The notes below the pieces were generated by a model. The model was not told the origin of the DNA, did no database searches, and saw nothing but the letters and a program-made list of their open reading frames with translations. The position numbers and the translations under genes were made by a program. 64,000 nucleotides of DNA from Pelagibacteraceae bacterium (lineage in GTDB: Bacteria > Pseudomonadota > Alphaproteobacteria > Pelagibacterales > Pelagibacteraceae), in NCBI GenBank assembly GCA_008638205.1, contig VTPO01000001.1, forward strand, positions 62,001 through 126,000. Direction: 5' to 3'. The first letter of the stretch is position 1. Every line of letters starts with the position of its first letter. Shown here in pieces: positions 1-47,825 of this stretch.

Positions 1-2478
1 TCCCACAACTCCAATACTGGTAGCTAATTTTTTTGTTTGTTTTTTTACTTCATTAATTATTTCTTCAGAAAGAGAGTAGGGTGGTATGCAGCAAGCAGAA
101 TCGCCAGAATGAATACCCGCTTCCTCTATGTGTTCCATGACACCTGAAACAAAAACATTCTCTCCATCGCAAATAGCATCCACATCCACTTCAATTGCAT
201 CATTCAAAAAGCGGTCTAATAAAACTGGATTATTTCCTGAAACCTTTACAGCTTCTTGAATATATCTTGTTAGCTGCTCATCGTCATGAATGATTTCCAT
301 GGCTCTTCCACCTAGAACGTATGAAGGTCTAATTACGAGAGGGTACTTAATTTTTTTTGCAATTTCAAAAGCTTCCTCTTTAGATCTAGCCAAGCCATTC
401 TCAGCTTGTTTCAAGCCAAGTTGGTTTATTAAATTACTAAATCTTTCTCTATCCTCAGTGAGATCAATAGAATCTAGGGGGGTTCCAAGGATTGGGTAGC
501 CATTATCGTGAATGGCTTTTGCCAATTTCAAAGGAGTCTGACCGCCAAACTGAACAATCACTCCTTTTAATTTTCCTTTTGAGCTTTCCTTCTTTAAAAT
601 TTCCAAAACAAATTCTTCAATCAGTGGCTCAAAATAAAGCCTATCGCTAGTATCATAATCAGTAGATACCGTTTCTGGATTGCAATTAATCATAATTGTT
701 TCGTAGTCCAGTTCACTTAATGCATAACTTGCCTGACAACAGCAGTAATCAAATTCAATTCCTTGCCCTATTCTGTTAGGACCACCACCAATAATTACTA
801 CTTTTTCTTTTTCAGTGGGATTAGATTCACAATCATTGGAGTCATCAATGCCGGTATCATATGTTGAATACATATAGGGAGTTTGAGAATCAAACTCAGC
901 AGCACATGTATCAACTTTTTTATAGACAGGAACAATTCCCAACTTATTTCTTTTTACAACAATTTCAGTTAGGGGCTTGTTGGTTAATATAGATATCTGC
1001 TTATCGCTAAAGCCAGAGGATTTAATAAATTTAAAAAAACCTTTGTTTTCTAGAGCATCAGATTTTTTTATCTCTTTTTCAATATCAACAATTTCCTTAA
1101 CTTGCTTTAAAAACCAAGGGTCAATTTTAGTTATTGTGTGTATCTCTTCTGCTGAAAAGCTCATTCTAAAAGCTTCTGCCACATAAAGTATTTTTTGAGG
1201 AATGTTTTCAGCAAGCTTTTTTTTCAAATCCTCTTTATTGATAGAAAAAGAATCTAAACCATCTAACCCCACCTCTAAGGAGACCAGTGCTTTTTGCAAA
1301 GATTCTTTAAAATTTCTTCCAATGGCCATTGTTTCACCAACAGATTTCATAGCAGTGCCAAGCTCTGCTTTTGATTTTTGGAATTTTTCAAATGCAAATC
1401 TGGGTATTTTAGTTACAACATAATCAATGGTTGGCTCAAATGATGCTGGAGTGTTTCCGGTGATGTCATTTGTGATTTCATCAAGAGTATAGCCAATAGC
1501 TAACTTTGCAGCTACTTTTGCTATTGGAAAACCAGTGGCCTTAGAAGCAAGCGCAGAAGATCGAGATACCCTTGGATTCATTTCGATTACAATCATTCTT
1601 CCATCTTTAGGATTAATTGCAAATTGAACATTCGAACCTCCTGTTTCGACTCCTATTTTTCTCAAACAACTAATAGATGCATTTCTCATTACTTGATATT
1701 CTTTGTCAGTTAAAGTTAAGGCAGGAGCAACTGTCATAGAGTCACCAGTGTGAATACCCATCGGGTCTACATTTTCAATGCTGCAAATAATGATACAATT
1801 ATCTTTGTTATCTCGAACGACTTCCATTTCAAACTCTTTCCAACCTACCAAAGACTCTTCTACAAGAACTTCATGAGTTGGAGATAAGGAGAGTCCATTT
1901 TTTAATATTTTTAAGTATTCTTCTTCTGTATTTGCAACTCCTCCACCAGTTCCACCCAAGGTAAAAGAAGGTCTAATAATTACAGGAAGATTTATTTCTT
2001 CTAAAATTTTTTTAGCTTGGTCAAAAGAAGTGCAAATTGCTGATCTTGCAGATTCCAAACCTATTTCATTCATGTGTTTTTTGAATTTCTGTCTGTCCTC
2101 CGCTTTGTCAATCGCTTCTGCATTGGCTCCAATAAGCTCAATATTGTATTTTTTCAGTATGCCTTTTTTGTGCAGTAACATTGCTGCATTTAAACCTGTC
2201 TGGCCTCCCATAGTTGGTAGGATTGCATCTGGCTTTTCTATTCTAATAATTTCTTCTAAAATTTCAGTTGTAATTGGTTCTATATAAGTTTTATCAGCAA
2301 CATTTGGATCGGTCATAATAGTTGCTGGATTAGAATTAATTAAAATAACTTTATAGCCCTCCTCTTTCAGTGCTTTACATGCCTGAGTTCCAGAGTAGTC
2401 AAATTCACAAGCCTGCCCAATAACAATCGGTCCGGCTCCAATAATTAATATGGTTTTAAGGTCAGTTCTTTTTGGCAT
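1..2478 (-). CDS. carB: Carbamoyl-phosphate synthase large subunit (C-terminus beyond window)
   Basis: Makes carbamoyl phosphate from bicarbonate, ATP and ammonia supplied by CarA, for pyrimidine and arginine synthesis in the cytoplasm. The minus-strand frame opens with ATG at 2478 ([17 protein letters not shown]) and stays open to position 1, giving 826 codons of the roughly 1070 usual for CarB. The early residues carry the typical [11 protein letters not shown] and [10 protein letters not shown] segments of the first ATP-grasp half. The start overlaps the carA stop by 17 bp, so the two are co-transcribed and probably translationally coupled. The end that is missing holds the rest of the second ATP-grasp half and the allosteric domain. 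Identification is firm; only the 3' end is unseen. Confidence 0.96.
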
Positions 2479-6038: not shown

Positions 6039-7904
6039 GTGGAAAAATTAATATCCAAATCATTTGAACGACTAATGGAAAAAGGCCTTAGCAGGGGCTT
6101 TATTACCTATGAGGAATTGCAAAAATCTTTAGGAAAAAGAAATGCAAATGTTGAAAGTTTAGAAAAATCTGTTTTACATATATTCGATCAAGCAATTTGT
6201 TTTGTTAAAAAGAAATCTGATTTTAAAGTTAAAAAATTAGAATCTGAGATATCCAAGCAGCCAAAAAATCAAGATAGAAGCGATGACCCTATTAGAATGT
6301 ATCTTCGTGAAATGGGTGGAGTGGAGTTATTATCCAGAGAGGGTGAGATTGCAATTGCAAAAAGAATAGAGTCTGGAAAATATGTAATGGTAAGCTCTTT
6401 ATCAGAAAGTCCAGTTACAGCTAAAAAAATATTTGAGTGGGAAGAAAGACTAATCAATAACGAAATGTTAGTGAGGGATATTATTGATCTTGATACTAAT
6501 TTTTTAGATGACGATAAATTAAAAAAATCAATTAAAGAAAAAAAAGAAAAAGAAGAAAAGTTAAAGAAAAAAGAATCTAAGGAAAAAGGTGAGGAAACTA
6601 ATGACACAACTGCTGATATTGTAGATGATGATGACGAATTTAATATTTCATTAGCTTCTTTAGAGATTGAACTAAAGCCAAAGATCTTAGAAACTTTTAA
6701 AAATATTTCAAAAAATTATAGAAAATTAATAGCCTATCAAGAAGAGAGCTTGCAATGCATATTGAGCGGTCAAAAATTTTCCGACAGTAAGAAGAAAAAT
6801 TACGAAAAAATTAAAAAAGAAATCATGGAAGAGATGCTTGGTTTGCAATTTAATCAAGTAACTCAAGAAGATCTAGTCGCTTTGAATTATAATGAAAATA
6901 AAAAAGCAATCAATCTAGATGGGGATTTAATGCGTGCGGCTCTAAAATATGGAATTTCAAGAGATGATTTTATTAAATTTTATGTTGGCAACGAGCTAAA
7001 TCCTAATTTTGAATCTTTTTTAAGTGGAGATAAAAATTGGTCTAAATTTTTTAAGAACGAACAAAAATTATTTAAGGTATCAAGAGAAAAACTTACGGAG
7101 TTAAGTAAAAATATTGGAATTTCTATTTCAGATTTTAAAATTTTAGTAAATAAAATTAAAAAAGGTGAAAGAGAGTCGAGAATTGCAAAGAAAGAAATGA
7201 TCGAGGCCAATTTGAGATTGGTGATTTCTATTGCAAAAAAATATACTAATCGTGGGCTTCAATTTTTAGACTTAATTCAAGAGGGAAATATTGGTTTAAT
7301 GAAAGCCGTTGATAAATTTGAGTATAGAAGAGGGTATAAATTTTCAACTTACGCAACTTGGTGGATTAGACAGGCAATAACAAGATCTATTGCTGATCAG
7401 GCAAGAACAATTAGAATTCCAGTCCACATGATAGAAACAATTAATAAAATTGTAAGAACTTCTAGACAAATGATGAGTGAGTATGGAAGAGAGCCTACCC
7501 CTGAAGAGCTATCTAAAAAATTAGCCATGCCTTTGGAAAAAGTTAGAAAAGTTCTTAAAATTGCAAAAGAGCCAATTTCATTAGAAACTCCAGTGGGAGA
7601 TGAAGACGATAGTAGCTTAGGAGATTTTATTGAGGATACTAATGCTTTAATTCCTGTGGATGCAGCAATTCAAACAGGGTTAAAAAATTCAACCACAAAA
7701 GTTTTGGCATCTCTTACACCAAGAGAAGAGAGGGTATTGAGAATGAGATTTGGTATTGGAATGAATACTGACCACACCTTGGAAGAGGTTGGGCAGCAGT
7801 TCTCTGTTACCCGAGAGCGAATTAGACAAATTGAAGCCAAAGCTCTCAGAAAACTTAAGCATCCAAGTAGATCAAGACAGTTAAAAAGTTTTTTAGACAA
7901 TTAA
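6039..7904 (+). CDS. rpoD: Housekeeping RNA polymerase sigma-70 factor
   Basis: Directs RNA polymerase to -35/-10 promoters. The 621-residue protein carries region 1.1 (about 1-60), region 1.2 starting at [16 protein letters not shown], the group-1 non-conserved region, and regions 2-4. Region 2 includes the -10 recognition segment [15 protein letters not shown] and region 4 ends in the helix-turn-helix [17 protein letters not shown]. The start is GTG at 6039, preceded by a purine-rich AAAGGAAAAAC. Residues about 165-200 are a lysine/glutamate- and aspartate-rich stretch, probably an unstructured linker in the non-conserved region. It closes the yqeY-dnaG-rpoD operon. Confidence 0.97.
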
Positions 7905-44685: not shown

Positions 44686-44717
44686 CAAAAAAAAACCACC
44701 GGCTAGAGCGGTGGTTT
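44686..44717 (-). terminator. Intrinsic terminator of the SAM-II riboswitch
   Basis: On the minus strand, AACCACCG and CGGTGGTT form an 8-bp stem around a 7-nt loop, followed by nine T residues. It stands between the SAM-II aptamer and metF, and stops transcription before metF when formed. The CCGC in its 5' arm could instead pair with GCGG in the aptamer, a possible antiterminator; that part is inference. Confidence 0.85.
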
Positions 44718-44718
44718 A

Positions 44719-44773
44719 AATCGCTTTAGCTGGTTTTATATAGCGCCCGCAATTTGAACAAATCAGCGCTTGA
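44719..44773 (-). promoter_or_regulatory. SAM-II riboswitch aptamer
   Basis: The minus strand carries the SAM-II (metA motif) core: GCGCTGATTTG, then ATTGCGGGCGC, then ATAAAACCAGCTAAAG. GCGC blocks pair to form P1, and the closing GCTAAA folds back to make the pseudoknot that holds S-adenosylmethionine. Spacing of these blocks agrees with the known alphaproteobacterial aptamers as I remember them. A terminator follows directly. A weak promoter (TTTACA at 44802-44807 with TATTAC or TACATA near 44780-44787) lies just upstream. Ligand identity is inferred from the class; position before metF-metE-metZ supports it. Confidence 0.9.
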
Positions 44774-44835
44774 AGTGGTATGTAATAATAAATAGACAAA
44801 ATGTAAAGGGTAAAAAGCCAAATATTGAAGAACTT

Positions 44836-45009
44836 TTAGTGCTTGTGATTTTGAGCTCCACCTAAACCACAAGGCATAGCATTGATGGACCCAGAAGTTT
44901 CGCCTTCTTTATGAAATAGAGGGTTGTAAGCCACACCACTATAATTGTGGTCATAGATAATGACTGCAAAAAAAGCAGTTAAAATAAGAAGGTAAAGAAT
45001 ATTTTTCAT
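44836..45009 (-). CDS. Small membrane protein with Cys/His tail, 57 aa, unknown
   Basis: A short frame beginning at ATG 45009, which overlaps the TGA stop of the upstream YeeE/TsuA-type gene as ATGA, so the two are probably translationally coupled. The 57-residue product has an N-terminal hydrophobic helix (MKNILYLLILTAFFAVIIYD) acting as anchor or uncleaved signal, then a polar tail likely in the periplasm. The tail has one cysteine and three histidines near the end (MPCGLGGAQNHKH). I do not recognise the family. The coupling to a thiosulfate transporter and the presence of an exported sulfurtransferase upstream suggest a role in handling sulfur or a metal; this is inference. Confidence 0.7.
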   Translation of the reverse strand: MKNILYLLILTAFFAVIIYDHNYSGVAYNPLFHKEGETSGSINAMPCGLGGAQNHKH

Positions 45010-46172
45010 TGATAAAAAAACTTTCTAGCTTTCACCCCAAAGTAAGAGCCCATAAATGCAAACAAAAACCATATCCAACCGTGCATACTCCCTGAAGCTA
45101 TACCACCAAACAATGCTCCAATATTACAACCAAATGCAAGTCTGGCTCCATAGCCCATAAAAAAACCACCAATCATGGCAGCTAAAAATAACTTTTTATC
45201 AATTTTAATTTGATTAGAAAAGTTACCAGATAAAGCAGAAGCTATTAAAGCACCCAAAATAATTCCTAAGTTAGAAACGGTCGTAGGATCTGCCAATAAA
45301 CTATTTTCTAGGGCAACAGCAGGGTAGGATAATTGCCAATAGTCCCAAGAAGAAACATCCACACCAATTAGGGTTACTAATTTTGCCCCCCACAATCCAA
45401 AAGAAAATGTGACAGACCATGGATGACCTGCAGCATGCAGCATTAAAAAATTAAATAATACCAAAATAACAGAACCTAAAAATAAAGGCCATGGTCCCCT
45501 AAGAAGACTAAAAGAGTCAAATCTAAAAATGTTATTATGATCTATTATTTTGTTTCTTTTCTTGTCTAGAATAAAAACAGTTAAATAAAGAGTAAAAATA
45601 AGACTTAACTGAAAAGTTAAAGTTTCAACCAGAGTATAATTGTCTAATAAAGAAATTCCTCCTAAAGAGGGAAGGGATGACCAAAAATTAAAGTGGTATG
45701 TTCCCGCTACAGAGCCAATAATAAAAAAAAATAAAGTAATAACCATTTTGGTATTACCACTTCCAGCAGTAAATAAAGTTCCAGAGCCACAGCCTCCACC
45801 CAATTGCATGGCAAGACCAAACATAAAAGATCCAATAACCACAGACAAACTAACCGGAGCAATTGCCCCTACGATAGTGCCATCATATACAAAACTTTTA
45901 GAACCAATGACAAAAGAAAAAACTATAGCTGCTAAAGCCAGCATTAAAAATTGAGCTCGAAGTGCACTACTATCCCTTTTTTCAATAAAATTTCTCCACC
46001 CACCCGTAAAACCAAATGCAGCTTTATATAAAGTGAAGCCCAAACCAATACCAATAGCAAAAACTAGAAAATGACGAAGACCAATCGTGGAATAGGTAAT
46101 GTAAGAAAATAATAGTGTAAAAATAACCCCAAACAAAACAATGGGCGTTTCAATTTTTTTAATTACAATCAT
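45006..46172 (-). CDS. YeeE/YedE (TsuA-type) thiosulfate transporter
   Basis: Membrane protein of the sulf_transp family; characterised TsuA members import thiosulfate using conserved cysteines. The 388-residue protein has about ten hydrophobic helices and the two family hallmarks: MQLGGGCGSGTLFTAGSGN in the first half and ARLAFGCNIGALFGGIASGS in the second, each with the transport cysteine in a GC or GCN turn. WRNFIEKRD and GHPWSVTFSFGLWGAK are further typical segments. It follows an exported sulfurtransferase on the same strand, and its stop codon overlaps the start of the 57-aa protein. Thiosulfate as substrate is family-based inference. Confidence 0.88.
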   Translation of the reverse strand: MIVIKKIETPIVLFGVIFTLLFSYITYSTIGLRHFLVFAIGIGLGFTLYKAAFGFTGGWRNFIEKRDSSALRAQFLMLALAAIVFSFVIGSKSFVYDGTIVGAIAPVSLSVVIGSFMFGLAMQLGGGCGSGTLFTAGSGNTKMVITLFFFIIGSVAGTYHFNFWSSLPSLGGISLLDNYTLVETLTFQLSLIFTLYLTVFILDKKRNKIIDHNNIFRFDSFSLLRGPWPLFLGSVILVLFNFLMLHAAGHPWSVTFSFGLWGAKLVTLIGVDVSSWDYWQLSYPAVALENSLLADPTTVSNLGIILGALIASALSGNFSNQIKIDKKLFLAAMIGGFFMGYGARLAFGCNIGALFGGIASGSMHGWIWFLFAFMGSYFGVKARKFFYQ

Positions 46173-46239: not shown

Positions 46240-47145
46240 TTATCCGGAAATAACTTTGTTTTTAGGATTGCTTTCCCAATGCGCCCAAGATCCATCATAC
46301 ATTCTTACTTGAGGAATATTTGCAACTTCACTTAGCGCAAACCAAACAGTAGCAGCCCAGTGTCCAGTGTTACAATAAGTAATGTATCCTTTGAAATCTT
46401 TGATTTGAGCCGCATCATAGAGCTTTAATATTTCCGCTTTAGACTTGATAAAACCATCACTTCCAACTGTTTTTTGCTGCTCTACATTAACTGCATTAGG
46501 TATTCTTCCAACCACTTTTAAAGCAGGATGTTTTTTGACTCCTTTAAAGAAATCGTTAGGTCTAGCATCAATTAAACAAATACCATTTGTTTCTTTCTTA
46601 GCATTTCTCACTTCTTTATAAGAAGCGCTGTACTTTTTGTTGATTGAAGCTTTAAATACTTTTGGAGACAATGAGTTTTCACCAGCTACCACTTTATAGC
46701 CAGCATCTTTCCATGACTTAAAACCACCATTTAAAATAGAAACATTTTCATGTCCTAAAGTTTTAAAAGTCCAATAAATCCTAGCAGCACTTCCAAAATC
46801 AGTAGAATTCACTCCGGCATAAATAACAATAATATGTTTTGAATTATCAATTCCAAGACTTCCTACTAATTGTTCCAGCGGCTTTTTTCCTGGAAATTGT
46901 CCGATCACACCATTAACTTTTGCTCTCCATCCATCTTTTAGATAATCAGAGTGCACTGCTCCTGGAATATGAGCTTGTTTAAATGTTTCGTAAGATCCAC
47001 CATCAATTTTGTTTCTAATGTCTAATATAAATACATTTTTGTTGTTTAAATTTTTATTTAACCATTTCACATCCACTAACGGTTCTGCTGAGAACACAGA
47101 TGTTGAAATAAAAATAAAAAGTACTGCTGTTATTATTTTTTTCAT
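46240..47145 (-). CDS. Exported two-domain sulfurtransferase (rhodanese family)
   Basis: Transfers sulfane sulfur from donors such as thiosulfate or 3-mercaptopyruvate. The 301-residue protein has a signal peptide (MKKIITAVLFIFISTSVFSA), so it acts in the periplasm. It has two rhodanese domains: the N-terminal one has IVIYAGVNSTDFGSAAR with no catalytic cysteine, while the C-terminal one has Cys258 in YITYCNTGHWAATVWF. The CNTGHWA loop differs from the CRxGxR of typical thiosulfate sulfurtransferases, so the acceptor and donor are uncertain. The neighbours are a peroxiredoxin upstream and a thiosulfate transporter downstream. Confidence 0.88.
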   Translation of the reverse strand: MKKIITAVLFIFISTSVFSAEPLVDVKWLNKNLNNKNVFILDIRNKIDGGSYETFKQAHIPGAVHSDYLKDGWRAKVNGVIGQFPGKKPLEQLVGSLGIDNSKHIIVIYAGVNSTDFGSAARIYWTFKTLGHENVSILNGGFKSWKDAGYKVVAGENSLSPKVFKASINKKYSASYKEVRNAKKETNGICLIDARPNDFFKGVKKHPALKVVGRIPNAVNVEQQKTVGSDGFIKSKAEILKLYDAAQIKDFKGYITYCNTGHWAATVWFALSEVANIPQVRMYDGSWAHWESNPKNKVISG

Positions 47146-47156
47146 TTTTTCTTTTT

Positions 47157-47825
47157 CTAGTTTAAAGTTTTGGGTTGTTTAACAATTCTAAGGTAGGGCT
47201 TCACGGTATTCCAACCATCTGGAAACAGCGTCTGCGCTTCTTCTTCTTTTACTGCAGGAACAATAATTACATCTTCCCCTTGCTTCCAATTAGCAGGAGT
47301 TGCAACTTTATGTTTTGCGGTTAATTGAAGTGAGTCAATGACTCTTAGAATTTCTGGAAAATTTCTACCCGTCGCCATTGGATACGATAAAATAAGTTTA
47401 ATTTTTTTATCAGGACCAATCACGAATACATTTCGAACCGTTGCATTATCAGCTGCAGTTCTTCCATCAGAAGATCCTTCAGCGCTAGCTGGAAGCATTC
47501 CATAGGCTTTTGCAACGGCTAGATCCTTATCTCCAATTAATGGATACTCAGGTTTGAAACCAGTAACATCCTTGATGTCTTCGCTCCATTTTTCATGATC
47601 TTCTACTGGATCAATACTTAATCCTAAAATTTTAACATTTCTTTTATCAAACTCGATTTTGTGACTTTGAAGAGCTCCAAGTTCAGTTGTACAAACTGGA
47701 GTAAAATTTTTTGGATGAGAAAAAAGTACTATCCAGCTATCTTTAGCCCAATCATATAAATTAATTTTTCCTTGAGTTGTTTCTGCTTCAAAATCTGGAG
47801 CGGTATCATTTATTTTTAATGTCAT
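47157..47825 (-). CDS. 1-Cys peroxiredoxin (Prx6/AhpC family)
   Basis: Reduces hydrogen peroxide or organic peroxides. The 222-residue protein has the peroxidatic Cys45 in HPKNFTPVCTTELGAL and no second cysteine anywhere, which together with the long C-terminal arm (TPANWKQGEDVIIVPAV) fits the Prx6 1-Cys group. It is the first gene of the minus-strand sulfur block and starts 11 bp before the sulfurtransferase gene. Its upstream region contains a long inverted repeat. In that context it may handle reactive sulfur or peroxide produced during sulfur oxidation; this is inference. Confidence 0.92.
   Translation of the reverse strand: MTLKINDTAPDFEAETTQGKINLYDWAKDSWIVLFSHPKNFTPVCTTELGALQSHKIEFDKRNVKILGLSIDPVEDHEKWSEDIKDVTGFKPEYPLIGDKDLAVAKAYGMLPASAEGSSDGRTAADNATVRNVFVIGPDKKIKLILSYPMATGRNFPEILRVIDSLQLTAKHKVATPANWKQGEDVIIVPAVKEEEAQTLFPDGWNTVKPYLRIVKQPKTLN

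Follow-up and report, generated by a model that had tools for sequence, protein, structure and literature searches.

A small membrane protein gene overlapping a YeeE-family importer gene in SAR11 bacteria marks a rhodanese–YeeE module

A very short reading frame overlaps the end of a gene for a YeeE-family sulfur importer in a SAR11 genome (Pelagibacteraceae), which raises the question of whether it is a genuine gene and, if so, what its product does beside the importer. We addressed this question in a 64,000-nucleotide stretch of DNA, the whole of which is referred to as the window. The ORF coordinates confirmed that a 57-aa frame on the minus strand shares an ATGA with the importer gene, an arrangement that would couple its translation to that of yeeE. 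The features of the locus are as follows.

44836–45009, minus strand: gene of the 57-aa small membrane protein, supported by conservation and dN/dS
44953–45003, minus strand: predicted membrane helix, about residues 3–19, from AlphaFold (helix 2–24) and hydropathy
44947–44952, minus strand: helix-exit pair Asp20-His21, shared more widely than any other feature in a survey of 58 proteins
44911–44937, minus strand: GVAYNPLFH block, unvarying among SAR11 in the alignment
44857–44877, minus strand: MPCGLGG cysteine motif from the alignment, with the Cys47 codon at 44869–44871
44839–44850, minus strand: C-terminal NHKH, unvarying among SAR11 in the alignment
45006–45009, minus strand: ATGA overlap of the YeeE stop (TGA) and the small-gene start (ATG), from ORF coordinates
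45006–46172, minus strand: YeeE/YedE-family sulfur importer (PF04143), by its Pfam Sulf_transp match
46240–47145, minus strand: rhodanese/sulfurtransferase with a signal-peptide-like N-terminus and the active-site motif CNTGHWA, the third module member
47157–47825, minus strand: peroxiredoxin (AhpC/1-Cys type), the next gene upstream of the rhodanese

Translation of the frame gave MKNILYLLILTAFFAVIIYDHNYSGVAYNPLFHKEGETSGSINAMPCGLGGAQNHKH (57 aa), whose tail ends in MPCGLGGAQNHKH. The protein contains one N-terminal helix, one cysteine and several histidines. AlphaFold placed a helix at residues 2–24 with a pLDDT of about 88 and returned the tail at low confidence, and the single-helix, single-cysteine, histidine-bearing architecture noted in the preliminary description was thus borne out. 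By the positive-inside rule the N-terminus is predicted to lie inside and the tail in the periplasm, a topology read from charge and hydropathy only.

Homologues of the small gene were found in several SAR11 genera as eight distinct sequences, each directly after YeeE and starting at −4 or −1 relative to the YeeE stop; HIMB114 was the closest named relative found to carry one. The alignment of nine SAR11 sequences contained 24 invariant columns, including GVAYNPLFH, MPCGLGG and NHKH, the last two forming an unvarying end block (MPCGLGG..NHKH), and His21, His33, Cys47, His55 and His57 were likewise invariant. Pairwise dN/dS of the SAR11 small genes was 0.04–0.18 where computable: the window gene differed from that of genome G005 by 17 synonymous and 8 nonsynonymous changes (dN/dS 0.083), and the comparison with HIMB114 was saturated. 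The remaining reading frames across these genes were broken by stops. The preliminary description had named conservation of the ORF in relatives and the codon substitution pattern as checks on its proposal; the ORF is kept with its coupled start in all eight sequences and the substitutions point to purifying selection, so that, by sequence comparison, the SAR11 small gene is confirmed as a real coding gene under purifying selection. The frame is very short, as would be expected of a chance ORF or an untranslated remnant, but such an origin is barely credible given the dN/dS range, the unvarying motifs at both ends and the retained start overlap. The gene was absent from five SAR11 genomes with a YeeE of another lineage (G001, G004, G010, G023 and G031), in three of which, where the next gene was readable, YeeE was followed by a cysteine-synthase-like gene. 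At one locus of G005 (L022) the YeeE frame was split into 154 and 232 aa beside an intact small gene, which probably reflects a frameshift or a sequencing error.

Searches of the small protein against Pfam, NCBIfam, PHROGs and PDB sequences returned no credible match, in agreement with the earlier statement that it has no described family, and neither phage records nor viral contigs contained a homologue. Used as the query of a sequence search, the SAR11 alignment reached no credible relative outside SAR11; its weak class-level matches were attributed to chance, and among the matches listed they lay at unrelated sites away from YeeE. The literature searched contained no description of such a gene, the nearest mention being Hden_0678, and a 'small membrane protein' of cable bacteria was rejected as the same gene since it sits at another locus. 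In Sinorhizobium records with a PLSDB gene table, which is incomplete, the equivalent ORF was absent from the listing. The gene is small enough for annotation to overlook, as the Sinorhizobium gene tables illustrate.

We then considered the identity of the partner, which the preliminary description had called a TsuA-type thiosulfate transporter. Its membership of the YeeE family stood, the PF04143 (Sulf_transp) score being 226.8 bits (cut-off 27), but the more specific assignment did not: scores against the two NCBIfam TsuA models were 81.7 and 52.1 bits, where 400 and 645, respectively, are required. In Spirochaeta TsuA, sulfur is relayed from C293 through C91 and C22 to C17 of YeeD on the cytoplasmic side (PMC11073785). 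Cys349 and Cys128 of the partner correspond to C293 and C91, Gly54 occupies the C22 position, and the surrounding stretch, as far as it was read, contained no YeeD/TsuB gene. By the NCBIfam cut-offs and the three-cysteine relay, the partner thus reads as a YeeE-family protein other than TsuA. Thiosulfate is not established as its substrate, because the C22 equivalent is absent and the scores are far below the TsuA cut-offs; thiosulfate is possible, and other sulfane sulfur species are equally so. For SoxT1A, a YeeE relative, the authors argue that thiosulfate is not the substrate (PMC11582611). The idea that the small protein supplies the missing C22 in trans was rejected, since C22 is also missing from YeeE proteins that have no small gene beside them, and since it lies on the cytoplasmic side. 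An AlphaFold model of YeeE built from six sequences had a mean pLDDT of 38 and was set aside.

To look beyond SAR11, we examined the genes that follow YeeE in Alpha- and Gammaproteobacteria by position and not via sequence similarity. This survey yielded 58 small proteins built on one plan: a short, basic N-terminus leads into a single helix, an acidic residue marks the point where the helix leaves the membrane, and the tail beyond contains cysteine. They were divided into five groups by tail type.

Group A: SAR11, PCGLGG tail
Group G: L108, L181 and L182, PCGL repeats with 4 to 14 cysteines
Group B: Rhizobiaceae and others, NPCAA/APCAAG repeats with up to 28 cysteines
Group C: mostly gammaproteobacterial-type sample and some alphaproteobacteria, CAPCGAPC-like tail
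Group D: GGHC/GGFC tail, mostly with a single tail cysteine

The exit acidic residue was present in 58 of 58 Cys-tail proteins, a count that is not independent for group B, which was picked partly by this residue; the other groups were picked without regard to it. The dipeptide [DE]H occurred within residues 15–32 in 44 of the 58 (shuffled sequences averaged 2.9), and the number of tail cysteines ranged from 1 to 28. The −4 overlap with YeeE was found in 23/58 overall and in 20/27 of groups A, B and G. The class can be defined as an ORF directly after yeeE, mostly overlapping it or within 15 bases, and the window protein fits the plan, lying directly after yeeE with one helix, D20-H21 at the helix exit and Cys47 in the tail. 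As a control, a filter requiring a start from −13 to +40 of the stop, 45–210 aa, one N-terminal helix and a later cysteine was applied to the same loci; it was passed by an ORF after 27 of 70 non-redundant YeeE genes versus 5 of 377 other genes. No family match was found for the representatives of the other groups tested against Pfam and NCBIfam. In five alphaproteobacterial loci (L108, L128, L130, L131 and L132) the small gene was followed by similar, conserved hypothetical proteins of about 190–210 aa with an EHGHFH motif.

The small gene is usually accompanied by a rhodanese. In the window the order is rhodanese, YeeE and small protein, with the peroxiredoxin upstream; several further SAR11 loci likewise have a peroxiredoxin close to YeeE. 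An upstream CNTGH-type rhodanese was present at 57 of 67 loci with the small gene, including those with the cysteine-less forms described below, versus 3 of 75 without it; the Fisher test of this association treats related genomes as independent, so that its p-values overstate the association, and retention across many lineages is the informative part. When 15 loci were checked, 14 rhodaneses were recovered, 13 of them with a signal-peptide-like N-terminus. Gene order thus links the three genes, and the small gene marks a module of signal-peptide rhodanese, YeeE and small protein. By the same comparison the small gene is not restricted to SAR11 and appears as part of a broader module. A separate YeeE lineage ends in a C-terminal cysteine of its own (..RLTGC, ..KPTAC; loci L107, L109, L112, L115, L133, L144–L149, L151, L152 and others); the small gene was never found there in the survey, and the rhodanese was absent with one exception.

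Whether the groups share an origin was judged from profiles, trees and gene order. Profile comparison gave a probability of 98% for G–B, and of 20% for A–G, 18% for A–C and 39% for C–D. In a careful YeeE tree of 89 rows, A and D each formed one clade, and B and C were intermixed. In a quick tree of 141 rows, the Cys-tail label required two changes, one of them a ten-row clade of cysteine-less proteins; with these counted as present, one branch parted YeeE with the small gene from YeeE without it, at low support (SH-aLRT 28). SAR11 YeeE clustered with those YeeE proteins that have a partner bearing PCGL units, as the SAR11 protein does: L182, L181 and L108 contain repeated copies of PCGL/PCGLGG, and in L182 the PCGLGG form seen in SAR11 recurs many times. 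Gene order and the YeeE trees agree with common descent, and between-group profile scores are weak except for G–B; common descent of the small proteins is the simplest reading of these comparisons. The alternative, in which unrelated small genes came to lie by YeeE in the different groups and the one in SAR11 serves a different purpose as a partner peculiar to its lineage, would account for the weak profile scores and for the failure of the SAR11 alignment alone to reach a credible relative beyond SAR11. We consider it highly unlikely: the groups agree in place, plan, neighbours and D-H, the YeeE lineage nearest to that of SAR11 has partners with PCGL units, and the YeeE tree needs few changes.

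Ten loci (L221, L223, L224, L226–L231 and L233) carried cysteine-less 'minis' of 28–38 aa after YeeE, which consist of the helix and D-H or D-Y/W followed by the stop, belong to one YeeE clade and retain the rhodanese. Since the minis keep the helix and the exit residue without the cysteine tail, these two elements would form the core of the protein and the cysteine arm an accessory that can be lost; with the rhodanese kept in these ten relatives, the cysteine is dispensable in at least some cases. The same observation can be used to argue for a role that is structural or regulatory only: the small protein would be a single-helix YeeE subunit in which the helix, with the acidic/His pair at the membrane surface, keeps the importer stable or gates it, and its tail would do no sulfur chemistry and perhaps form a redox-sensitive disulfide. 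Such a role fits what the minis retain (exactly the helix and D-H or D-Y, plus the rhodanese), the exit acidic residue found throughout the Cys-tail proteins, and a 56-aa one-helix protein without cysteine near soxT1A in Hyphomicrobium denitrificans (PMC11582611). The dispensability of the arm in the minis leaves it a sizeable probability, well short of an even chance: the tail cysteine persists through very different tails and is lost in one surveyed clade, and MPCGLGG is unvarying in SAR11.

The Cys/His content of the tail had also suggested metal binding. A periplasmic copper- or zinc-binding tail could shield the YeeE and rhodanese thiols or supply metal to the system, and the five invariant Cys and His residues in SAR11 and the close-set cysteines elsewhere (CAPCGAPC, NPCAANPC) are compatible with such a site. 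We regard this function as rather unlikely, given that only SAR11 has the tail histidines, that group D proteins mostly carry just one cysteine in the tail, and that the stretches read around these genes contain sulfur genes and no metal genes. The metal proposal of the preliminary description was weakened in this way, the tail histidines not being common to the other groups whereas the tail cysteine nearly always is.

The reading we favour, to which we give an even chance, is that the small protein is an accessory subunit of the YeeE-family importer, with a periplasmic cysteine tail that receives sulfane sulfur from the rhodanese and offers it to YeeE. The helix would pack against YeeE as a membrane subunit, with the basic N-terminus inside and the tail in the periplasm. 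The periplasmic rhodanese would pick up sulfane sulfur as a persulfide, the donor being thiosulfate or some other compound. The flexible cysteine arm would receive this sulfur from the rhodanese or serve as the docking site of that enzyme, and would present the sulfur at the periplasmic mouth of YeeE beside the first relay cysteine (the C293 equivalent). A periplasmic tail cysteine would thus add a step before the first of a TsuA-type relay. The earlier suggestion that the tail accepts sulfur gains support from the rhodanese–YeeE context, and from that context we infer the transfer itself.

The fate of the imported sulfur may differ among genomes. Downstream of the small gene in the window lie genes reading as metF, metE and a Cys/Met-metabolism PLP enzyme, and because these adjoin the module, sulfur may go into methionine here. 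Between the small gene and metF, positions 44693–44779 (minus strand) resemble a SAM riboswitch (RF00521, 25.8 bits against a gathering score of 36) and overlap a terminator-like hairpin; in L002 a SAM-V element above cut-off lies just downstream of the small gene (1288–1352, minus strand). In the SAR11 locus L012, a metallo-beta-lactamase-fold protein (6128–6832), possibly a persulfide dioxygenase, directly follows the small gene, and AprB/AprA-type genes are divergent from the rhodanese; these neighbours suggest that the imported sulfur would go to oxidation there. The window genome contained no match to AprA, and the metallo-beta-lactamase relative that it did contain was distant; without an AprA match, the L012-type pathway is not claimed for it.

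Both the accessory subunit and the cysteine arm have precedents as kinds, and the present gene is uncharacterised and apparently overlooked. KdpF, CydX and AcrZ are tiny one-helix subunits that pack against a large membrane protein and are made beside or for that partner. The small protein resembles them in being tiny, in having one helix and in being made next to a large membrane protein; we know of no such subunit with a conserved Cys tail outside the membrane or a rhodanese partner. In Sox thiosulfate oxidation, the C-terminal GGCGG arm of SoxY is a glycine-rich, flexible cysteine arm that carries sulfur in the periplasm. By description, it is an analogue of how the small-protein tail would work; SoxY itself is soluble, folded and periplasmic and works with SoxZ, and the cysteine of the small protein lies 11 residues from the C-terminal end.

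Among proteins near YeeE-like transporters, the closest described is Hden_0678 ('hyp1'), a 56-aa membrane protein near soxT1A of Hyphomicrobium denitrificans, reported with the DsbA-like Hden_0679 and the rhodanese Hden_0680 near SoxT1A (Hden_0681) (PMC11582611). Compared by description, it is likewise very short, with one central helix and an N-terminus predicted inside; unlike the small protein, it is without cysteine, and its gene does not overlap the transporter gene. The authors of that study assigned it no function. For periplasmic sulfur hand-over to YeeE-family importers only candidate donors have been discussed (PMC11582611), and a testable candidate for this step is the small gene, which marks one YeeE lineage along with a periplasmic rhodanese. 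YeeD/TsuB is also a small partner of the YeeE family with a cysteine next to the relay cysteines, but it is soluble and cytoplasmic and acts on the exit side through a TusA fold and a CPxP motif (PMC11073785). In contrast, the small protein, with one hydrophobic helix, no CPxP motif and no Pfam or NCBIfam match, does not belong to the TusA family; it lacks the TusA fold, is membrane-anchored and has its tail predicted on the entry side. More generally, and with somewhat less than even confidence, we propose that widespread membrane-anchored, Cys-armed subunits load rhodanese sulfane sulfur into YeeE as the entry-side counterpart of YeeD/TsuB, which, if true, would make up a three-part periplasmic persulfide import system in SAR11, rhizobia and gammaproteobacteria.
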